Positions 52,717 to 63,882 of a DNA stretch of 64,000 nt are shown piece by piece. The DNA is taken from contig NZ_CP021378.1 in assembly GCF_002215495.1 (NCBI RefSeq), forward strand, positions 828,417 through 892,416, given 5' to 3'. The stretch's first letter is position 1; each line of letters begins with the position of its first letter. The position numbers were made by a program, and so were the translations under genes. Below the pieces are notes generated by a model, which was not told where the DNA came from, ran no database searches, and saw nothing but the letters and a program-made list of their open reading frames with translations. Source of the DNA: Porphyrobacter sp. CACIAM 03H1. Its GTDB lineage: Bacteria > Pseudomonadota > Alphaproteobacteria > Sphingomonadales > Sphingomonadaceae.

Positions 52717-53040
52717 CTATTTCGGGCGCCGCGCCTTGCGATCCGCCTCGCGTTTCAGCTTGAGCAATTCCTCAATGTCGACCACCTCGGCACGGGCTTT
52801 CATCCACATCATGCCGCCTGTGCCCCACGCGAACATAACGATCAGGTAGAGCGCAAGGCCGATATGAAAGGTGGAACCTTCGGGTTGGCCGGACGCAAAC
52901 CACGCAAAGCCGCCGGTGATCGGTGCCAGCAGCGCCATCCAGACCACCGTCTGGCGCCAGCCCTCGCCATTGCGCGGGGCAATCTTGAAGCTCCACCGCC
53001 CGTAACGGGTGAGAATGAAGGGCTTGTCCTCGTCACGCAT
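52717..53040 (-). CDS. Small two-helix membrane protein
   Basis: A 107-residue protein with two transmembrane helices (about residues 31-50 and 58-80) and a basic cytosolic tail (LLKLKREADRKARRPK). No known family. It is the last gene of the SPFH-RHH operon, overlapping the RHH gene's stop by 8 bases, which makes translational coupling likely. It may act with the SPFH protein at the membrane. Confidence 0.6.
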   Translation of the reverse strand: MRDEDKPFILTRYGRWSFKIAPRNGEGWRQTVVWMALLAPITGGFAWFASGQPEGSTFHIGLALYLIVMFAWGTGGMMWMKARAEVVDIEELLKLKREADRKARRPK

Positions 53041-53248
53041 CGCTGTCTCCCTCGCTTGCCTTGCCCGCAGGCCGCCCGCGCTTGGCGGATTTGCTGACCT
53101 CGACTTTCACCCCGCGCCGCGCCAGCGCCTCGCGCAGCAGCATCTCGATCTCGGCGTTCACGCTGCGCAGCTCGGCATCGGCGAGCCGCTGGACCGCAGC
53201 GTGAAGCGCCGGATCGAGACGCAGGGCAAAGGCCTTCTTCGCACTCAT
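53033..53248 (-). CDS. Ribbon-helix-helix (Arc-like) DNA-binding protein
   Basis: A 71-residue basic protein. The N-terminal stretch KKAFALRLDPALHAAVQRLADAELRSVNAEIEMLLREAL has the Arc/MetJ strand-helix-helix pattern, with Lys/Arg residues on the strand for DNA contact. It may repress its own operon. Small RHH proteins are common antitoxins, but no toxin gene is adjacent. The start ATG at 53248 is 8 bases after the SPFH stop on the same strand. Its tail is Lys- and Gly-rich. Confidence 0.72.
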   Translation of the reverse strand: MSAKKAFALRLDPALHAAVQRLADAELRSVNAEIEMLLREALARRGVKVEVSKSAKRGRPAGKASEGDSDA

Positions 53249-53255
53249 GGCAGGA

Positions 53256-54158
53256 TCAGTAGAGCGATCCTGCATTGACCACCGGGGTCGTGTCGCGCTC
53301 GGAACAGAGCACCACCATCAGGTTCGACACCATCGCCGCGCGCCGCTCGTCGTCGAGGTGGACGACGTCCTTTTCGCTGAGCTGGGTCAGCGCCAGTTCG
53401 ACCATCGAGACCGCACCCTCGACCAGCTTGGCGCGCGCGGCGATCACCGCCTCGGCCTGCTGGCGGCGCAGCATCGCGCCGGCGATCTCGGGGGCATAGG
53501 CGAGGTGGGTGAGGCCGCATTCATCGACGGTGATCCCGGCGACCTGCAGCCGCTCGATCAGGGCGAGGCGCAGCTCCGCACCGACCTCCTCGTGGTTGCC
53601 GCGCAGGGTGACCTCGAGATGCTCGATATCGTCATAGGGATAGCGCGAACCGATTGCGCGCACCGCCGCCTCGATCTGGGCGGTGACGAACTCGCGGTAG
53701 TCGTCGACGTCGTAGAGCGCCTGCGCGGTGTCGGTGACGCGCCACACGACCTGCGCGGCCATTTCGATCGGGTTGCCGCGCGCGTCGTTGACCTTGATCT
53801 TCTCCGAGATGACGTTGTTGGCGCGCACAGCGATCTTGCTGCGGGTCAGCCACGGCAGGACCCAGCGCAGCCCCTCGTTGCGGTCTGTGCCCTTGTAGGC
53901 GCCGAACAGCTGGATCGCTGCGGCCTCGTTGGGGTTGATCATGTAGAAGCCGGTGAGGATGAACAGCCCGGCGACGCCGGTGACGATCGCGCCGATCACC
54001 TTGAGCCCGTCGGGATCCTCGGGCGCCATCGCGCCGATGAACAGCCAGACCGCCAGTGCCACCAGCACGAGGCTGGCGAGCAGCATCACATAGCCGCTCT
54101 GTGTCGTTGCCGGGACTTCCCGGCTGCGGTTGAGGGCAGGGGTATCGGATGGGGACAT
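53256..54158 (-). CDS. SPFH/band-7 domain membrane protein
   Basis: A 300-residue protein. It has two N-terminal transmembrane helices (about residues 24-43 and 55-73), then a band-7/SPFH core ([56 protein letters not shown]). A C-terminal helix ([27 protein letters not shown]) and a final [12 protein letters not shown] tail follow. Such proteins form large scaffolds or microdomains and guard membrane proteases. It is the first gene of the operon with the RHH protein. It is divergent from the TIR gene; the region between holds a repeated ATCAT operator candidate. Confidence 0.87.
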
Positions 54159-54334: not shown

Positions 54335-56335
54335 GTGGACAGCGCAGACGACGCCTCCTCCGGTGTCCCCCCCCTGCTGTTCGTCAGCTATTCGCGCGGC
54401 GATCTCGCTCGCACCCGTCCTGTCATCGACCTGCTCGAAGGGGCGGGATACGACGTGTGGTGGGACGGACGGCTCGAGGGCGGCGAGAACTATCTCCAGA
54501 CCACCGAGGCCGCGCTCGAGGGCGCGGATGCGGTGGTGGTGCTGTGGTCGGCCGCATCGACCCAGTCGCACTGGGTCCGCGACGAGGCCCAGCGCGGTCG
54601 CGAGCGCGGCTGCCTCGTGCCGCTGACGATTGACGGGACGATGGCCCCGCTCGGCTTCCGCCAGTTCCAGTTGCTCGACATCAGCGGCTGGGACGGCCAG
54701 CCCGGCAGCCCCGAGGCGGCGCGCATTCTCGTCGCGGTCAGGGCCAAGGCCGGGGCCGAACAGGGCACAGGCCAAGCGGCGCGCGTGCCGGTCGCGGCTG
54801 CCCCGGCTGTACCGACGGCGGTGCCTGCCGCCGCGCAGCTGGCGGGCGGGCCCGCGCTCTCGCGCCGCACCCTGATGATCGGCGTCGCGGGCGTGGCGGG
54901 AGCGGCGGGGCTGCTGGGCGCATGGCAGTTCGGGATTTTCGGCTCGCCAGCCTCGGCGGCGATCTCGATGGTGGTGCTGCCCTTCGCCAACGAGACCGGC
55001 GATCCGGCCAAGCAGTATTTCTCCGAGGGGCTCTCGCGCGAATTGCGCAGCGTGCTCGCCCGCAACCCGCGGCTCCAGGTCGCAGCGCCCACCTCCTCGA
55101 GCGTCATCCAGAGCGAGGACGATTTCGCCATCGGCCGCAAGCTCGGGGTCGGGCACATCCTGCGCGGCAGCGTCCAGCGCGACACCGCGCGGGTGCGGGT
55201 CAGTGCCGAACTGGTCGAGATCAAGGGCGGGCTGGTGCGCTGGGCCGAAACCTACGACCGCGCGCTCGAGGATGTCTTCGCGGTCCAGTCCGAGATCGCG
55301 CAGACCGTCGCGGTTTCGCTTGTCGCCGAGGTCGCTACTGCCAGCGAGGCGCAGAAGGCGGCGGCGGCGCAGCAGGATGTCGGCGGGACGCAGAACGTCG
55401 CCGCCTACGAGGCCTTTCTGCGCGGCTTTGCGCTCTACGAGGTCTCGGCCGGCACCGACAGCGACCGCGCGGCTCTGACGCAGTTCGACGCCGCGATCGC
55501 GGCCGACCCCGACTACGCCGCCGCCCATGCGATGCGCTCGACAATGCTGGCGGCAATCGCGAACAACGTGGCAAGCGGCGAGGCCGAATCCGCCGAGCTG
55601 TTCGGGGAAGCGATCGCGGCGGCCGAGCGCGCCCTCCAGATCGAGAAGCGCCTGCCGCGCGGGCACCTGGCGCTCGGCTTCGCGCTCAACAACGGGAAGC
55701 TGTCGCGAGCTGCGGCAACGCCCCATTTCCGCGCCGCGCAGGAGCTCGCGCCGGGCGATGCCGACGTTCTGCGCTCGGTCGCGGGCTTTCTCGCCTATGG
55801 CTCCGAGGTGCCGCAGGCCGAGCAGATGATTGCCAAGGTGCTCGCGCTCGATCCGCTCAATGCGCGCGCCTACCGTTCGGCGGGATATATTTCGCTGTTC
55901 GCGCGCGACTACCCGTCGGTCGTGTCGCGCATGGAACGCGGCCTGACGCTCAATCCGAGCCTGTCGAGCGCGCAGTTCGGCATCGCCATCGCGCGGCTGA
56001 TGCAGAACGATCCCGCCGGCGCGCTCAAGGCCGCCGAGGCAGAGGCCGGAGAGGCCTATGCGCTCACCGCCATCGCGGTGGCCAGGCACCGGCTCGGCGA
56101 TGCGGCAGGCTCCGATGCCGCGCTGTCGAAGCTGGCGAGCGCCTATGACGACAGCCACTACCAGCAGGCCCAGGTCCACGCCCAGCGCGGGAACACCGCA
56201 GAGGCGCTGGCGCAGCTGGAAACTGGCTATGCGATGCGCGATCCGGGGATGCTGTGGATGCCCAACGACCCGCTGCTCGATCCGCTGCGGGGCGAGGCGG
56301 CTTTCAAGAATTTGCTTTCGCGCCTCGGATCATGA
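54335..56335 (+). CDS. TIR-domain membrane protein with TolB-like and TPR regions
   Basis: A 666-residue protein. Residues about 12-145 form a TIR domain (LLFVSYSRGD, VWWDGRL, VVVLWSAASTQSHW) with a Glu84 at the position of the catalytic glutamate of TIR NADases. After a Pro/Ala linker comes one transmembrane helix (about 180-200). Next is a FlgO/TolB-like region (ISMVVLPFANETGD, GHILRGSVQRD) of the type found in adenylate-cyclase-like sensors, and a TPR series (about 370-660). The inner TIR and outer TPR suggest signal transfer across the inner membrane. GTG 54335, with AAGGGGGG ahead, is preferred to an upstream ATG. Function and NADase activity are inferred. Confidence 0.8.
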   Translation: MDSADDASSGVPPLLFVSYSRGDLARTRPVIDLLEGAGYDVWWDGRLEGGENYLQTTEAALEGADAVVVLWSAASTQSHWVRDEAQRGRERGCLVPLTIDGTMAPLGFRQFQLLDISGWDGQPGSPEAARILVAVRAKAGAEQGTGQAARVPVAAAPAVPTAVPAAAQLAGGPALSRRTLMIGVAGVAGAAGLLGAWQFGIFGSPASAAISMVVLPFANETGDPAKQYFSEGLSRELRSVLARNPRLQVAAPTSSSVIQSEDDFAIGRKLGVGHILRGSVQRDTARVRVSAELVEIKGGLVRWAETYDRALEDVFAVQSEIAQTVAVSLVAEVATASEAQKAAAAQQDVGGTQNVAAYEAFLRGFALYEVSAGTDSDRAALTQFDAAIAADPDYAAAHAMRSTMLAAIANNVASGEAESAELFGEAIAAAERALQIEKRLPRGHLALGFALNNGKLSRAAATPHFRAAQELAPGDADVLRSVAGFLAYGSEVPQAEQMIAKVLALDPLNARAYRSAGYISLFARDYPSVVSRMERGLTLNPSLSSAQFGIAIARLMQNDPAGALKAAEAEAGEAYALTAIAVARHRLGDAAGSDAALSKLASAYDDSHYQQAQVHAQRGNTAEALAQLETGYAMRDPGMLWMPNDPLLDPLRGEAAFKNLLSRLGS

Positions 56336-56387
56336 TAGCACCCCTCGGTCGCGCTCAATGGGGGGCGCGCATGAGGGGGTTGATTAC

Positions 56388-56636
56388 ATGAAGAAGATTG
56401 TGACCTTCGCCGCTGTCGCGGCTGGCGCCCTGGCGCTGTCGGCCTGCGGCGGCAAGACGGAAGAGGCCCCCGAGGCCGAACCGACCGCCGATGCCATGGC
56501 TGCCGAAACGCCCGCGGCGGATCCGGCCGAAGCCGCTGCCGAAGGCCTCGACCCGACCGGCAACCCGATCCCGCCGGCCGCGTCCGACAACCCGATTCCG
56601 CCCGAAGGCGAAGCCGCCGGCGCGACCGCCGAGTAA
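56388..56636 (+). CDS. Small acidic lipoprotein (82 aa)
   Basis: A signal peptide with lipobox LSAC (Cys20), then a low-complexity Glu/Ala/Pro region with repeated AEP, PPE and NPIPP motifs. No enzyme domain. Such proteins are envelope spacers or regulators. It lies 52 bases after the TIR gene, with GAGGGGG before its ATG at 56388, so it is probably co-transcribed. A perfect 12-bp hairpin follows the stop. Confidence 0.72.
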   Translation: MKKIVTFAAVAAGALALSACGGKTEEAPEAEPTADAMAAETPAADPAEAAAEGLDPTGNPIPPAASDNPIPPEGEAAGATAE

Positions 56637-56647
56637 TCGCTGGCCAG

Positions 56648-56675
56648 ACCCTGCGCGGCCGGTGCCGCGCAGGGT
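56648..56675. terminator. Bidirectional stem-loop after the lipoprotein gene
   Basis: ACCCTGCGCGGC (56648-56659) and GCCGCGCAGGGT (56664-56675) are perfect inverted copies with loop CGGT. It stands between the lipoprotein stop and the stop of the convergent protease gene. There is no clear T-run. Confidence 0.7.
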
Positions 56676-58178
56676 TCAATCTGTCACCAGCGTCATCCGG
56701 CGCCACGCGTCCTTCGGCAGCTTCTCCTGAAGCCACGCCCAGACCGTCCGGTGCGTCAACCGGACAAATCGGCTCGGATTCGCGCCATCCCCGCAAGCGT
56801 CAGCCATGCTGATCACGCCGATCAGAACCCTGCGCCGCTGCGCATCCTCGAGCACGAGCGGACCGCCGCTGTCGCCCTTGCAATTGTGCTGCCCCGATCC
56901 CGCCGCCGCGCACAGCACGGAACCCTTGCGGATATCCCGGAAATGGGTCGCATTGGTGCAGGACGCCTCGCTCATCAGGGTAACATCCCCGCGCCTGAGG
57001 CCGTCGGCCGGCCGCGGGTCGTCGGGCGAAGTCCGGCCCCAACCCAGAACGTCCACGTTGAGCCTGCCGGAGATCGGGCGGCTGGCCGGAGGGCGGGCAT
57101 CGACCGCCACGGGGCGGAACGGCCTCTCCCCGAACACTTTCCCGCGCGCAATCGGGCGGGTCTCGTCGAACCGGATCAGCGCAATGTCGAAGGCGTAGGT
57201 TGCGGGGGTGAAGGAATTGTGCCCGATGACCTCCCGGATCGGATAGGAAATGCCCTCCTGCTCGTTGAACGGGTTGTGCGCCCCGAGCCGGATCGCGTGC
57301 CCGCTGGTGGGGGTTACGCGCCCGCTGTCCTTGTGATCGAGACAGTGCGCCGCCGTGAGCACCCATCCGGGCGCAATCAGCGATCCTCCGCAGGCCACCC
57401 TTTGCCACGCCTCGAGCTTCCGCGTTCCCAGCTGCCTCGGGTGCTCGAGGATCGCCACCCAGTTGGCGCTTCCCGGGCGGAGCGGAATGCCCCGGTTGAC
57501 CCCGACCATGCGCGGTTCGTCCGAGGGATCAACTTCCGTGAGCTGCCCATCGCTTTCGACCTGCCCTTCGGCATCCGGAGCGCCTTCCGGCCTCGATGGA
57601 GGCAGGTCGGCATAGTCGATATCTCCGGATGGAACGGCGGCGGTGTCAGACGCCGGCTCCGGCTCCGGGGCCTGTGCCGGCGCGAGGGCCTCGCAGGCGT
57701 CCTGCTGGCCCGAGCGGCAGAGCCGGCCGACCAGATCGCGGGCGCGGGCGGCGTCGGCAGGGAGGAGGTCGCCCGAACCCAGTTCGTCCGCCAGCGTGCG
57801 GCAGGCTTCGAGCGATCCGCTGTCGCAGGCGCGCGAGAGGTAGGCGGTCACCACGGCAGAATTCGTGCCGCTCTCGTCCAGCGTCCGCGCGATCAGCATC
57901 AGCTCGCCGACGGTCGCGCAGGTCTCCGCCGCCTCCGCGACCGTTGCGGGGCTGTCGCACACCGGGCGCAACAGGGCGAGGGCGCGGGGGCGGTCGGCGA
58001 GGGGATCGTAGATGTCGGCAAGCCGCTTGCCGAGCGTGATGCAGGCGGCGCGCTCGCCCTTGCGGCATGCGGTGTCGAGCGTCCGGACCTCCCGCGGATC
58101 GGCCCGCGCCGGGGCCGCTCCCAGCACCGCGGCCGCCAGAACCAGACCCGCCAGCGCCGCCACTCGCTTGCCCATCAT
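56676..58178 (-). CDS. Secreted trypsin-like serine protease with Sel1-like cysteine repeats
   Basis: A 500-residue secreted protein. After a signal peptide (LGAAPARADP) come about 130 residues of helical repeats with paired cysteines of Sel1/TPR-like type (CRKGERAACITLG, CDSGSLEACRTLADEL, CRSGQQDACEAL). An acidic Pro-rich linker leads to a trypsin-fold S1 protease with the triad His in LTAAHC, Asp in YAFDIALIRF and Ser in CKGDSGGPLV. The substrate is unknown. A second, longer protein of the same plan lies directly upstream (58255-60567), separated by 76 bases. Confidence 0.88.
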   Translation of the reverse strand: MMGKRVAALAGLVLAAAVLGAAPARADPREVRTLDTACRKGERAACITLGKRLADIYDPLADRPRALALLRPVCDSPATVAEAAETCATVGELMLIARTLDESGTNSAVVTAYLSRACDSGSLEACRTLADELGSGDLLPADAARARDLVGRLCRSGQQDACEALAPAQAPEPEPASDTAAVPSGDIDYADLPPSRPEGAPDAEGQVESDGQLTEVDPSDEPRMVGVNRGIPLRPGSANWVAILEHPRQLGTRKLEAWQRVACGGSLIAPGWVLTAAHCLDHKDSGRVTPTSGHAIRLGAHNPFNEQEGISYPIREVIGHNSFTPATYAFDIALIRFDETRPIARGKVFGERPFRPVAVDARPPASRPISGRLNVDVLGWGRTSPDDPRPADGLRRGDVTLMSEASCTNATHFRDIRKGSVLCAAAGSGQHNCKGDSGGPLVLEDAQRRRVLIGVISMADACGDGANPSRFVRLTHRTVWAWLQEKLPKDAWRRMTLVTD

Positions 58179-58254
58179 CTTTCTCCCGCCTGTCCGGCAA
58201 ATATGCCCTCTTGCAGGATGTTGCGCAATTATCCCTCGGACGGGCCGGTCGCGG

Positions 58255-60567
58255 TCAGCGAGCCGTCGGTTCGGCCCTGAAGCCGGGCAGGTTCTCCTCC
58301 AGCCAGGCCTGTACCAGCGGGTGCCCGATCCGCACGTAGCGGCTTGGCTTGCCGGTGGTGCCGCAGGCCTTGCCCGCGCTCACCACCCCGATCAGGGTCG
58401 GAACACCCTTCTGGTCGCCATAGGTGACGAGCGGCCCGCCGCTGTCGCCGTCGCAGGCCTGCTCGCCGTTGGCGCCCGCCGCGCACAGGATCGAATCCCT
58501 GCGCAGGTCGCGAAAGGCGGTGAGCTGGGTGCATTCCTCCGCATCGCGCAGCATCAGCCGCGCCGCCTGCAAATAGGTGGGAATGCTGCCGGCGGCGGCC
58601 TGCGCGAAGTCGGACCGGTGCCGGTCGACGAACCGGGTGCGCCCGAAGCCGAAGGTGAACACCGGCGCGCCGGCACGGACCGGTCGCTGCGCCAGCGTGC
58701 GCCGGTCGAGGTTGATCCGCGCCACGCCGGTGACGAAGTCGCCCCTGGTGCCGCTGCGCGGGTCATATTCCACCAGCGCGATATCGAAGGCGTAGGTCTT
58801 GGGGTCGAAGCGCGGATGGCGGATCGCGCGGCGGATCGCGTAACTGTTGCCCTCGTCCTCGAACGGCCGGATCAGACCGAGCCGGACCCGATGGCCGCCG
58901 GTGACGATATCGGTGTTCTCGATGTCGACGAGGCAGTGGGCTGCGGTCACGATCCAGCCCGTGCGCACCAGACTACCCCCGCACAGCACCCTGTCCCCGC
59001 CCGAGACCTTGGTCCGCCCGATCTGCTCCGGCCGCCACAGCAGCGCCTGCCACGGCGCCTGCTCGAGCCGGGGTACCGCAAAGCCGCCGATCACCCGCGC
59101 GATACTGATGCACAGCGTATCGCTGTAGGTCACGCCCTCGAAGATCGCTGTGTTGGTCTGGCAGCGCTGCGCTGCGAATTCGGCGTCCTGCCGTTCGCGC
59201 TCCTCGCGCTCGATCCGTTCCTCTTCGGCGATCTCCTCGGGTGTCCGGATCGGCGGATCGTAGCCCTGCGCCAGCGGCGCGGGCGCGGCCGGATGGCTGA
59301 AGCGCACCAGGGCGTCGCAGGCCTTCGCCCGCCCGGCGTCGCATTGCACCAGATAGAGCTCTTCCGCCCGCGCCTGATCGAACAGCACCCTCGGGCCCTC
59401 CGCGAGCTCGTCGGCAAGGGTTTCGCAGGCCTCGCGCTCTCCCGCCTCGCAGCCGCGTGCGAGCAGGGCGACGGCGCGCCTCGCCTTCACATCTCTGTCG
59501 GCATCGCTGCTGCGGTTGAGCGTGTATTCGCCCGCTGGCTTGCACGCCGCGAAAGCCCCCGCCTCGCAGGCTGCGGAAAGTACCGCGATGGCGCGGTCGG
59601 GATCGAACAGCACGCTGTTCCAGCGGTAGAGCATCAGGCCGAGTTCGGTGCAGGACGCCAGCGTCCCGCCATCGCATTCCGGCGCAAGCAGCGGTTCGCG
59701 GGCAAGGTCGGCGGCTTGGCTGCAAGCTGGCAGATCCCCGCCCGCGCAGGCGCGCGCGAACAGGGCGGTGGCGGCTGCCCGTTCGTCCGGCCCCCGCGCA
59801 AAGGCCGCCTTCGCCAGAACGATGCAGGTCGAGGTGTCGCCGGCGGTGCAGGCCAGATCGCGATAGGCCAAGGTGCGCGGCCCCTCGCCATTTTCCGTCG
59901 CTTCCCAGTATTGCAGCGCATCGGCGCAGGCCTCGCGTCCGCCCGCGCGGCACTGCCGGTCGATGAGGGCGAGGCCCTCGGCAAGGCGGCGTCTGGTACG
60001 CGGCTCGGCCAGCAGCATGGCGGCCAAGGTCCGGCACGCCTCGGCGGTACCTTGCGATGTCCGGCAATCGGCCCGCAGGCCGGCCTCGACCTCGCGCGGA
60101 TCGGGCGGCGTGAGAGTGCAGTCGGCGGGGACCCCGAGACGGCAGGCCCGTGCCGTCAGCCATTCGGCCTCGACCTCGTCCTGCGGGGTGCCGCGGTGCA
60201 GCAGCAAGGCGGCGAGCTGCGCGCAGCCCGCGCCATCGGCGGCGTTGCAGGCCCGTCGGTAGAGCAGCTCCGCGACCGGTCGGATCTGGGGGCGGCCCTC
60301 GCCGCGCTGGAAGGCATCCCCGAGTGCGACGCAGCCGGCGGCACTCCCCTCGTTGCAGGCCGCCGCGGCCGCGTCGGCGGCGGCCGCCTCGCGGGCGGCG
60401 ACCTCGGGGAGCGGGTCCTGAGGAGCACGGTAGTGGTGGTTGACACCCCGCGGGTAGGCGATGGCGGCAGGCGCTTCGTCGGTTGTCGCCGCGCGCGCGC
60501 CCGACGCCAGCGCGAACACGGCCATCACCAGCATGGCCATGCGCAATGCCGCCCTGCTCCCGGCCAT
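58255..60567 (-). CDS. Secreted trypsin-like serine protease with a long Sel1-like repeat array
   Basis: A 770-residue protein of the same plan as its neighbour. It has a signal peptide (AVFALASGARAATT) and about 400 residues of Cys-paired repeats (CNEGSAAGCVALG, CNAADGAGCAQL, CRAGGREACADAL, CAGGDLPACSQ, CEAGEREACETLADEL). A charged helix (AEEERIEREERERQ) precedes an S1 protease with His in VTAAHC, Asp in YAFDIALVEY and Ser in CDGDSGGPLV. ATG 60567 is taken with GGGGAGA upstream. It is divergent from the SLOG-type gene. The array may bind a partner or a peptide and control the protease. Confidence 0.88.
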   Translation of the reverse strand: MAGSRAALRMAMLVMAVFALASGARAATTDEAPAAIAYPRGVNHHYRAPQDPLPEVAAREAAAADAAAAACNEGSAAGCVALGDAFQRGEGRPQIRPVAELLYRRACNAADGAGCAQLAALLLHRGTPQDEVEAEWLTARACRLGVPADCTLTPPDPREVEAGLRADCRTSQGTAEACRTLAAMLLAEPRTRRRLAEGLALIDRQCRAGGREACADALQYWEATENGEGPRTLAYRDLACTAGDTSTCIVLAKAAFARGPDERAAATALFARACAGGDLPACSQAADLAREPLLAPECDGGTLASCTELGLMLYRWNSVLFDPDRAIAVLSAACEAGAFAACKPAGEYTLNRSSDADRDVKARRAVALLARGCEAGEREACETLADELAEGPRVLFDQARAEELYLVQCDAGRAKACDALVRFSHPAAPAPLAQGYDPPIRTPEEIAEEERIEREERERQDAEFAAQRCQTNTAIFEGVTYSDTLCISIARVIGGFAVPRLEQAPWQALLWRPEQIGRTKVSGGDRVLCGGSLVRTGWIVTAAHCLVDIENTDIVTGGHRVRLGLIRPFEDEGNSYAIRRAIRHPRFDPKTYAFDIALVEYDPRSGTRGDFVTGVARINLDRRTLAQRPVRAGAPVFTFGFGRTRFVDRHRSDFAQAAAGSIPTYLQAARLMLRDAEECTQLTAFRDLRRDSILCAAGANGEQACDGDSGGPLVTYGDQKGVPTLIGVVSAGKACGTTGKPSRYVRIGHPLVQAWLEENLPGFRAEPTAR

Positions 60568-60725
60568 CCCCCTGTCTCCCCAATGCCTTGCGCGATGATG
60601 CCTGCTTCGCGGGACATCGTCAAACCTGCGCGCGCGGGGGTCGCTTCGCGGTTGCAAGCGGACGGGGTGAGCGATTAAGCACGATGCCACGCCCCGCGTC
60701 GGCGCGCGGGCAGGGGGGAGACGAC

Positions 60726-62705
60726 GTGCCGATGCCAGCCAGCCTGCCTGCCCCCGTCCGCGACAGCTGGCAGCCGCACCTTTCGCTCGGGATCACCGGG
60801 CACCGCGCCTCCAATCCCTCCTTCTCGGCCCACGCTTCCGCCATCGCCGCCGCGCTCGAGGCGCTGTTCGCGCGGATCGACACGATCTGTGCCGGGCTGC
60901 CGGGGACGCGCGGGGCGGTGCGGCTCCATTCGTTGCTGGTTGACGGCACCGATCAGGTCGCCGCCGAGATCGCGCTCGCCCGCGGGTGGGAACTGGCTGT
61001 GCCCATGCCCTTCGGCGCGGCGCTCAACTGCGCGATCAACGCCCATCCCCTGACGCTCACCGATGTCGACGCCGTGCTGGCAGGCCGGCCCGCAGCCGAT
61101 CCTGCGGTCGAGGCCAAAGCCGCCGCGATCCGCGCCATCACCGCCCGGGCGAGCCTGTTCGAACTCGCCGACCGCGATGCCGAGGTCGAGGCGCTGTGGC
61201 GCGCAAGCCTCGCCGCGCCCGACGACCGCGCCGCCGCGCGCGCCTTCGAGGCGCTCTCGTCCGACAACGTCGCGCTCGCCGGGCGGGTGATGATCGAGCG
61301 CACCGATCTCGTTATCGCGGTGTGGGACGGAAAGGTCGCGAACCTGCCCGGCGGCACCGGACACACCGTCACCGCCGCGCTGGCGATGGGCGCGCCGGTG
61401 CTGCTGATCGACCCGACGACGCCCGAATCCTGCCGCATCCTCGGGCGGCCCGAGGAACTGCGCCAGCCTGCCCCCGCCGAACCCGATTTCGCCCGGCTCG
61501 AGGCGATCATCCGCGCCGCAGTGGTGGTCGAGGGCTGGAGCCCGACGCTGCTCGCCGCCGAGCAGTGGCGCCCGCGCTCGAGCAAGGCCTTCGGCCTCTA
61601 TCGCCGGATCGAGGCGGTCTTCGGCGGCGGCGGGGCGGGGGCCTTCGGGTCGCTACGGGTGGATTACGAGGCGCCCGGCGCGATCGTCGGCGGCAGCGGG
61701 GCCGGGGTGGTGGCCGCGGCCGAGGCGATGCCCGGCGGCGATCCGCGCGTGGCGCGCGAGCTGGCGGCAGACATCCTGCCGCTGTTCGCCTGGGCCGACG
61801 GCGTGGCGAGCCGGCTCGCCGATGCCTACCGGTCGGGCATGTGCGTCAACTTCGTGCTCGCCGCGCTGGCGGTGATCATCGGCATCGCCTTCCTCCCGCT
61901 GGGGCTTGCGGAATACAAGTGGATCTTCGCCGGGATCGAGCTGCTGCTGCTCGGCGGGATTCTGGTGCTGACCGCGGCCGGATCGCGGCTCGGCTGGCAC
62001 CGGCGCTGGTTCGCGATGCGGCGCGTGGCCGAATATCTGCGCCATGCGCCGGCACTTCTGCTGCTCGGCGTAGCGCGGCCGACCGGGCGCTGGCCGAGAA
62101 GCGGAGGACAGGGCGGCGGCGGGGCGGAATGGCCCGAACACTTCGCCCGCCACGCGCTGCGCGATGTCGGCCTGCCTGCGGTCGCCGCCACGCGCGATTA
62201 CCTGCGCGCAGGGCTGGCGGGCACGGTATTGCCCCATGTCAGCGCCCAGCGCGCCTATCACACCGCCAAGGCGCACCGGCTGGAGACGGTCCACAGCCGG
62301 CTCGACCGGGTGGCGGCGACCTGCTTCAAGCTCGCGGTGGTCTCGGTGCTGGCCTATCTCCTGCTGAAGGGCGCGGGGCTGGCGGGAATGGCGCCCAAGG
62401 ACCTCGCGGCCGATCTCTCGCCGCTCTTCACCTTCTTCGGCGTCGCCTTCCCGACGCTCGGCGCGAACCTTTCAGGGATCCGCTATTTCGGAGATTTCGA
62501 ACGCTTCGGTGCGATCTCGCGGGTCGCGGCGGAAAAGCTGCGCGAGATCGAGGAGCGCATCGGCCTGCTGCTCTCGGGCGCGCCGGACGCCCTCACCTAC
62601 CACGCCGCCGCCGACCTGATCCACGCGCTCGACGAAGCGGTGGTCGAGGAGATCGCGAGCTGGCAGTCGGTGTTCGGCGCCAAGCACCTCGCCCTTCCTG
62701 CCTAA
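60726..62705 (+). CDS. SLOG-like N-terminal domain protein with SLATT-like transmembrane region
   Basis: A 659-residue protein. The N-terminus (about 15-260) has the SLOG-like Rossmann pattern: LSLGITGHR (residues 19-27), a helix, LLVDGTDQVAAEIALARGWELAVPMPF and DLVIAVWDGK, then GGTGHTVTAALAMGAPVLLID. Such folds bind nucleotides or nucleotide-derived ligands. The C-terminal half has two hydrophobic helices (about 370-425), a helical region, and two more (about 535-585), a SLATT-like layout. GTG 60726, after GGGGGGAGA, is chosen (ATG 60732 is an alternative). SLOG-SLATT proteins are proposed nucleotide-signal effectors that form pores; that function is inferred here. Confidence 0.65.
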   Translation: MPMPASLPAPVRDSWQPHLSLGITGHRASNPSFSAHASAIAAALEALFARIDTICAGLPGTRGAVRLHSLLVDGTDQVAAEIALARGWELAVPMPFGAALNCAINAHPLTLTDVDAVLAGRPAADPAVEAKAAAIRAITARASLFELADRDAEVEALWRASLAAPDDRAAARAFEALSSDNVALAGRVMIERTDLVIAVWDGKVANLPGGTGHTVTAALAMGAPVLLIDPTTPESCRILGRPEELRQPAPAEPDFARLEAIIRAAVVVEGWSPTLLAAEQWRPRSSKAFGLYRRIEAVFGGGGAGAFGSLRVDYEAPGAIVGGSGAGVVAAAEAMPGGDPRVARELAADILPLFAWADGVASRLADAYRSGMCVNFVLAALAVIIGIAFLPLGLAEYKWIFAGIELLLLGGILVLTAAGSRLGWHRRWFAMRRVAEYLRHAPALLLLGVARPTGRWPRSGGQGGGGAEWPEHFARHALRDVGLPAVAATRDYLRAGLAGTVLPHVSAQRAYHTAKAHRLETVHSRLDRVAATCFKLAVVSVLAYLLLKGAGLAGMAPKDLAADLSPLFTFFGVAFPTLGANLSGIRYFGDFERFGAISRVAAEKLREIEERIGLLLSGAPDALTYHAAADLIHALDEAVVEEIASWQSVFGAKHLALPA

Positions 62706-62715
62706 ATCCGCCGGC

Positions 62716-63882
62716 CTAGGCTTTCATCCCCCGCCGCCGCGCCGTCTGCGCGCGCATCACCTTGTCGAACAGAGCGCGCCGCGCCGGGCCGCCGATCGCC
62801 ACGGCGAAATCGCCGAAGGCGCGGCGGTCGGGCCACAGCGGGTCGTCGGGCGCGTCGGGGACGGTGCAGGTGTCGAACAGCGTCAGCCCCGCCGCCGCCG
62901 CCAACCCGGCGACCCGACGCATCAGCAGGCGGCCGGGCGCAAAGCTGCGGAACCGCTCGTCGAAGGCCATCTTGAAGCCGTAGCCGCGGCCGCGCTGGAC
63001 GAGCCAGCTGGTCATCGCCACGATCGTCTCGCCCGTCGTGAGGCTGGCGAGCCGCACTGCCCCGCGGCGATGGCCTTCGCGGATCACCTCGCGGAACAGC
63101 CCCGCGGTGGCGGCATGGCAGCCGAGCGCGCTCGCCGCACGCCCCTTCCACCCGGCCCGTTCGAGCGCGAGGAAGGCCCCCAGCCACGGCTCGCAGTCCT
63201 CCGCGTGATCGTGCAGCACCAGCCGCACCTCGCCGTGGGCTTCGGCAAGCTTGCGCTCGAGGCCGTCGAGCCGCTTGTCGAGCTTCTTCGCCGCCCGCGG
63301 GTCGCCCGCGCTTGCCCCCAGTCGCGCGGGTCGGGTGAAGCTGCGGCACTGGTGGAGTGCGCGGCCGTGCTCGGCGCACAGGCTCGCCAGCGCGAGGGTG
63401 GCGGGATCGTCGAGCGGGAGGGTGTCGGCATAGAGGCCGAGCGCCACCCCGGGATGGCGGTCGAGATGGCCGAGCAGGGCCTCCCAGAACACCTTCTCGG
63501 CCCCCGGGCGCACCAGCGGCGTGCCGATGAACTGGTTGGCGCTGTGCCAGCTCTGGCGGCTCGGCAACGGCCAGCGCCCGATCACCGGATCAAGCGTCAG
63601 CGGCATCGCGCCGAGCCAGCCGCCAGCCGCGTCCTCGACCACCGCGAGGCGCAGCGAGCGTTCGCGCCCGCAATGGCGCAGCGCGGGTTCCATGAACCAG
63701 TCGGCGGCAAAGACGTTGCCGGCCGCCGCGCAGGTGGCGAGCTCGGCCCAGCGCCGCCGGTCGGGCAGCAGCAGATTTCCCGGGCGGTGGAAGGCGACCC
63801 GCGCCGGCGCCACCCCGCGCGGGTGGGCCAGCGGGCGCGGGCGCGGTGCGATCTCCAGCGCGCTGTCGTCGAGCGGTTTCAC
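62716..63882 (-). CDS. GNAT/FemAB-like acyltransferase (CelD-type)
   Basis: A 388-residue protein with GTG start. The GNAT-like double domain of the FemAB/CelD group is seen in the C-terminal half: VRLASLTTGETIVAMTSWLVQRGRGYGFKMAFDERFRSFAPGRLL. Relatives take part in polysaccharide or cellulose-related modification. It is 10 bases from the SLOG-type gene, convergent. Its start overlaps the stop of the next gene (GTGA, 63879-63882), which continues off the window, so a larger cell-surface cluster probably follows. Confidence 0.72.
   Translation of the reverse strand: MKPLDDSALEIAPRPRPLAHPRGVAPARVAFHRPGNLLLPDRRRWAELATCAAAGNVFAADWFMEPALRHCGRERSLRLAVVEDAAGGWLGAMPLTLDPVIGRWPLPSRQSWHSANQFIGTPLVRPGAEKVFWEALLGHLDRHPGVALGLYADTLPLDDPATLALASLCAEHGRALHQCRSFTRPARLGASAGDPRAAKKLDKRLDGLERKLAEAHGEVRLVLHDHAEDCEPWLGAFLALERAGWKGRAASALGCHAATAGLFREVIREGHRRGAVRLASLTTGETIVAMTSWLVQRGRGYGFKMAFDERFRSFAPGRLLMRRVAGLAAAAGLTLFDTCTVPDAPDDPLWPDRRAFGDFAVAIGGPARRALFDKVMRAQTARRRGMKA

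Follow-up and report, generated by a model that had tools for sequence, protein, structure and literature searches.

Do the five genes flanked by a Band 7 gene and a GNAT gene in Porphyrobacter sp. CACIAM 03H1 form one signalling system, and how would it work? The stretch analysed (hereafter the window) comprises 64,000 nucleotides of the forward strand of contig NZ_CP021378.1 (positions 828,417-892,416), and the genes encode, in order, a TIR receptor (+), a lipoprotein (+), two S1 proteases (-) and a SLOG-SLATT protein (+). All five were confirmed as real genes, and a preliminary description of them was mostly correct; its idea of a sensor and proteases outside the cell and a nucleotide signal inside was supported, but the unity of the five genes was not. 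The core of the module is two genes, those of the TIR receptor and the SLOG-SLATT protein. The data suggest an alarm pathway in which an event outside the cell is turned into a chemical signal inside, and a Thoeris-like signalling pathway with an outside-in receptor is the best explanation, one that we regard as moderately probable.

Loci were identified by the SLOG-SLATT protein alone and comprised 80 loci (the best 80 of 132; 27 of these 80 are one cluster of close relatives), the window and 40 further loci, 121 in total. Because the loci are related and p-values would overstate the result, counts are also given by cluster. A TIR gene was found within 10.4 kb of SLOG-SLATT in 55 of the 80 loci and in 22 of 29 clusters at 65% identity. 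Over all 121 loci the figure was 78 (41 of 58 clusters), or 73 of 116 (37 of 54 clusters) when L156-L160, picked with the TIR linkage already known, were omitted; a few contigs, recognised by their length, are counted under two locus names (L092/L151, L101/L152). The two classes of TIR profile were built from module loci, class b from ten, and test for these TIR families rather than for all TIRs. By comparison, 39 control regions, taken at round-number coordinates and not randomly drawn, held a TIR in one case and an S1 protease of the module kind in none. Among the 80 loci and the window, the widest gene clusters were SLOG-SLATT (78 loci), TIR-TPR (50) and S1 protease (40), and the next reached at most 15 loci each, mostly shared surroundings of close relatives. 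The predicted co-occurrence of the five genes in relatives held for three of them and failed for the lipoprotein, which was present in 20 of the 80 loci (15 by clustering, 5 more by tblastn), all close relatives.

The two core genes also co-occurred across 249 genomes of the family (33/35 versus 23/214), in a table that leaves out the fragment matches G010 and G140 (56 of 58 used), scores at most four TIR candidates per genome and uses a strong-TIR cut-off of E about 1e-80 set after the list had been seen. Of 21 genomes of the genus, 10 had both genes and 9 had neither, two of the latter matching the sensor part alone, and weakly. Separation of the genes in close relatives, which would have spoken against the module, was confined to two genomes with SLOG-SLATT only (G636 and G642), both fragmented assemblies, one with a cut protease. 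Neither gene was found in the relative G645 (89% complete assembly), where the shared left flank is followed by gamma-glutamyltransferase-like and katG-like genes (named by eye). The same partners recurred, with order and orientation changed and among different neighbours, in records of Hyphomonadaceae, Caulobacterales, Novosphingobium and Lysobacter. Mirror-tree correlations over 18 distant loci, with species relatedness uncontrolled, were not used as support (sensor part versus SLOG-SLATT, r 0.60; TIR versus SLOG-SLATT, r 0.31, p 0.010; TIR versus SLOG, r 0.25, p 0.054).

The strongest sign that the TIR and SLOG-SLATT proteins are a signalling pair is that many sensors are joined to one effector. 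The TIR partner had been described as a TIR-membrane helix-TolB-like-TPR protein; at other loci it is quite different, and its non-TIR portion was CadC-like/TPR, TPR, STAND-like, WD40, FHA or FGE-sulfatase (the last presumably equivalent to the FGS component of conflict systems). A STAND-like NTPase with TPR was seen at L076 (both matches sub-threshold), WD40 repeats at L097 and L104 (TIR by the class b profile built here, L104 being a seed of that profile), an FHA domain at L142, an FGE-sulfatase domain at L121 (Pfam TIR match below cut-off), and TPR at L128, L133 and L136, which passed PF08937 (ThsB_TIR; 41.5, 35.4 and 24.1 versus 21.2 bits). Some membrane helices escape a simple hydropathy cut-off, so their absence from other TIR partners is not claimed.

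The genes of the window and their parts are as follows (positions in the window).

54335..56335, +, TIR receptor gene, 666 residues
54371-54754, TIR domain, followed by an unstructured linker
54584-54586, codon of Glu84
about 54863-54940, twin arginine and membrane helix
54953-56332, CadC/TolB-like and TPR sensor part
56388..56636, +, small acidic lipoprotein gene, lipobox LSAC
56676..58178, -, secreted S1 protease 1, 500 residues, signal peptide, 3 Cys pairs, triad motifs complete
58255..60567, -, secreted S1 protease 2, about 770 residues, signal peptide, triad motifs complete, 10 Cys pairs in Sel1-like repeats spaced mostly about 35 residues
60726..62705, +, SLOG-SLATT gene, 659 residues
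60777-61535, SLOG domain
61758-62681, four-helix membrane/SLATT part
53256..54158, -, Band 7/SPFH gene, left flank, outside the module
62716..63882, -, GNAT acyltransferase gene (Acetyltransf_6), right flank, outside the module

To the left of the module, a small HicB-like gene (53033-53275; 23.3 bits versus a cut-off of 21) overlaps the end of the Band 7 gene.

The receptor carries a TIR fold with the catalytic glutamate. The window TIR scored 62.9 bits against a TIR_2 cut-off of 28 in the family scan, and its best PDB sequence matches were the TIR domain protein 7uxr (E 8e-6), AbTIR, RPV1 and RUN1, with SARM1 at E about 0.02 only. Glu84 was invariant in 31 of 31 aligned receptors, and a glutamate four residues after a tryptophan was present in all ten class b seeds. 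The TIR domain would be expected, from its sequence, to cleave NAD+. A twin arginine preceded the membrane helix in 31 of 31 receptors (three rows being offset by one residue in the alignment) and is followed by a weakly hydrophobic Ala/Gly-rich segment, an anchor that resembles a Tat signal. The predicted periplasmic part has the CadC periplasmic fold. No match to a winged-helix DNA-binding domain (HTH) was obtained for the receptor in the family scan, and the TIR occupies that place. The likely topology is one membrane helix with the TIR inside and the CadC-like/TPR sensor part in the periplasm.

The second core protein fuses a SLOG domain to four membrane helices. A Rossmann fold with conserved nucleotide loops was supported by the predicted model and VIA-align 2, with the TGHR motif kept in 50 of the 51 rows reaching it and GGT-x-x-T in 53 of 53. 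By sequence, SLOG had no match in Pfam, NCBIfam or the PDB, Foldseek gave nothing below E 0.001, and the SLATT scores were below their cut-offs (DUF4231, E 3e-4, 21.5 versus 24.7; SLATT_1, E 7e-7, 29.2 versus 41). The earlier SLOG call stood by model, and those of TIR and S1 by profile scans, as did the complete protease triads, Glu84 and the SLOG start motif; the SLATT call stayed short of its thresholds. Neither a SIR2, macro or caspase part nor a PADLOC model match was found in the protein (P0003). The family comprised 687 protein clusters at E <= 1e-10, and among the matches listed none of 120 clusters had a precomputed Pfam domain. In the phylum sample the protein was rare (7 of 398 genomes, the window's own included). 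A match in the relative L224 (G632) was reported with one internal TGA.

A small Ion_trans_2 (Pfam) protein adjoins SLOG-SLATT at L142:10408-10890 and L133:8260-8706, the two that were tested. Ten of the 121 loci held relatives, as did L140 at a greater distance, against 0 of 59 other regions, with profile matches in L141, L143, L128, L159, L078, L100, L103 and L105. This protein is a possible extra partner or target.

The proteases, proposed earlier as part of one module, were tied to the receptor type and not to SLOG-SLATT. Both window proteases have the S1 profile and a complete triad. S1 proteases occurred in 46 of 121 loci, 44 with a TIR at the same locus; of the other two, the contig of L054 stops within the receptor, and L051 and the broken G636 locus share one contig, judging by length and coordinates. 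Taking a strong match to the sensor profile as a CadC-type receptor, a protease was present at 44 of 52 loci with this receptor and at 0 of 26 with other TIR types (13 of 19 versus 0 of 22 clusters). This exclusive association places the protease on the sensor side. Where CadC-type receptors lacked SLOG-SLATT, 5 of 20 regions held a protease; in one of the five, L177, the sensor part stands without a TIR. Among 30 protease frames sampled from 21 of the 46 loci, 26 contained the three triad motifs and nearly all had a hydrophobic signal-like segment (by eye). The long Cys-paired repeats, taken at first for a feature of the module, were found mainly near the window's relatives; their likeness to Sel1 in the window proteases is one of Cys spacing only, as the Pfam Sel1 cut-off was not reached in protease 2 (11.8 versus 30.7) and Sel1 was not listed for protease 1. 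At the distant loci L074:7465-8094 and L098:201-593, SLOG-SLATT has other small lipoprotein-like genes in its vicinity (by eye).

In the favoured Thoeris-like pathway, the periplasmic sensor would respond to an event at the envelope, with the secreted S1 proteases probably detecting or gating that event. The TIR domains would then associate and cleave NAD+, and the SLOG domain would bind what they make, ADP-ribose or a cyclic or linked form of it. The four-helix SLATT part would open or disrupt the inner membrane, leading to growth arrest or death.

Three observations weigh against this pathway. No defence-model enrichment was seen beside the loci: of the three nearest non-core genes (90-480 residues) per cluster, 165 in all, 150 were scanned against PADLOC and matched 11 models with one or two members each, compared with 10 models matched once each by 150 control genes; several of these control matches look like housekeeping relatives, and the numbers are small. 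The proposed immunity role gains nothing from these neighbours. There was no match in 50,697 phage records. Finally, 43 of 121 loci had no TIR near SLOG-SLATT, even though the flanks are complete at some of them (L092, L101, L083, L151, L152); of the genomes whose SLOG-SLATT locus lacks a TIR, G073, G127, G235 and G232 had a strong TIR match elsewhere and others did not. Among 72,556 plasmid records, one match was found, on a 1.8-Mb Novosphingobium replicon. At individual loci, an HsdM fragment was seen beside L108, a GmrSD gene beside L142 and a tyrosine-type phage integrase gene directly after the orphan SLOG-SLATT gene at L083:12199-13392. A GAP1/vWA-MoxR conflict system was considered and dropped, as none of the five proteins has such a domain.

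The first two of these observations speak for an envelope or acid-stress pathway with no anti-phage role, in which pH, polyamines or envelope damage is sensed and answered by a controlled change in membrane permeability. The CadC-like sensor, the single site of the module across close relatives and the Ion_trans_2-type genes adjoining some loci agree with such a pathway, and it is compatible with the Thoeris-like one, which does not specify the trigger. The patchy presence of the module in genus and family argues the other way, as do the STAND-like, WD40, FHA or FGE-sulfatase parts on TIR partners elsewhere; an excerpt of PMC7159879 counts iSTAND and FGS parts among the components of conflict systems. 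A pathway without any anti-phage role has a real, if minority, chance of being right.

The loci lacking a nearby TIR would fit a TIR that acts alone, by NAD+ depletion or as a scaffold, with SLOG-SLATT a nucleotide enzyme or clean-up factor and not a gated effector. Likewise, 20 regions fetched for a TIR-TPR/sensor part without nearby SLOG-SLATT had none near, one SLATT remnant excepted, and DprA/LOG-type folds were among the best matches. However, SLOG-SLATT is linked to several unlike TIR partners and its SLOG is fused to four membrane helices. LOG enzymes carry the motif GGxGTxxE, and its glutamate is not kept in 53 SLOG sequences, where Ala, Val, Ser or Thr mostly stands in its place; a SLOG nucleosidase was dropped on this ground. 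A TIR acting alone is unlikely. The SLATT remnant (L166:10068-10289, SLOG-SLATT residues 529-580) lies beside an intact TIR-TPR gene and a protease and is probably a decayed module. At L171:10127-11382, about 450 bases separate a class a TIR-TPR gene from a class b TIR that points the other way. That the genes are independent neighbours held together by local synteny would account for the gene order conserved within the Erythrobacter/Porphyrobacter clade, but is very improbable given the rearranged recurrence of the partners in the distant records.

Returning to the Thoeris-like pathway, no description of this gene set was met in the open-licence PubMed Central (PMC) literature, in agreement with the preliminary description, although the founding SLATT/SLOG survey (Burroughs 2015) was not among the papers retrieved and may mention it. 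Nor did that literature yield many TIR proteins sharing a fused SLOG-SLATT protein as their partner, a TIR receptor whose outside part is CadC-like, or secreted S1 proteases coupled to a CadC-type TIR receptor. Known systems are compared here as they appear in excerpts of the cited papers. In type I Thoeris, the TIR protein ThsB is encoded beside ThsA, a SIR2-SLOG protein whose SLOG senses cyclic ADP-ribose made by the TIR (PMC11204291). Here, too, a TIR partner adjoins a protein with a SLOG domain, but the SLOG is on four membrane helices and not SIR2, the window TIR is part of a membrane receptor, and secreted proteases are added. In type II Thoeris, the TIR product makes a TM-macro ThsA oligomerise, perturbing the membrane (PMC11204291, PMC12847820); the logic from TIR to membrane effector is alike, with SLOG here as the sensor domain in place of macro. 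The window module was not classed as Thoeris because neither a ThsA nor a ThsB was identified in it, its TIR scoring 14.1 against the PF08937 cut-off of 21.2 bits. These comparisons suggest that it works like Thoeris while lying outside its membership. The Thoeris and SpbK TIR systems are triggered by phage proteins made within the cell, those of the capsid or the portal.

TIR genes also occur beside 2TM SLATT genes in phages and GAP1/conflict systems, and the role predicted for SLATT there is that of a membrane effector gated by a nucleotide signal (PMC9503650, PMC7159879). The pairing of TIR with SLATT and the predicted gating by an ADP-ribose derivative are shared, but in the present loci SLOG and a four-helix SLATT are in one protein, in bacterial genomes and with exchangeable TIR partners. 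The receptor is predicted to have the layout of the CadC/ToxR one-component family, one membrane helix and a periplasmic domain (PMC5430869), with a TIR in place of the DNA-binding domain. Since CadC and ToxR undergo periplasmic cleavage (PMC7593790), the proteases most likely act by cutting the sensor part, which would release or destroy it. The effector recalls TRPM2, in which an ADP-ribose-binding SLOG domain is able to gate a channel. It is quite possible, and is offered tentatively, that a CadC-like TIR receptor under protease control signals through an NAD derivative, not DNA binding, to a SLOG-gated membrane protein like a minimal TRPM2. If so, the module would belong to a wider class of TIR/SLOG-SLATT signalling systems, with a single membrane effector serving many different sensors; with its periplasmic TIR sensor and secreted proteases, the bacterial pathway would resemble an animal surface receptor in its construction, and its SLOG-fused effector would tie the chemistry of the TIR to a membrane response gated by ADP-ribose, of the kind seen in TRPM2.

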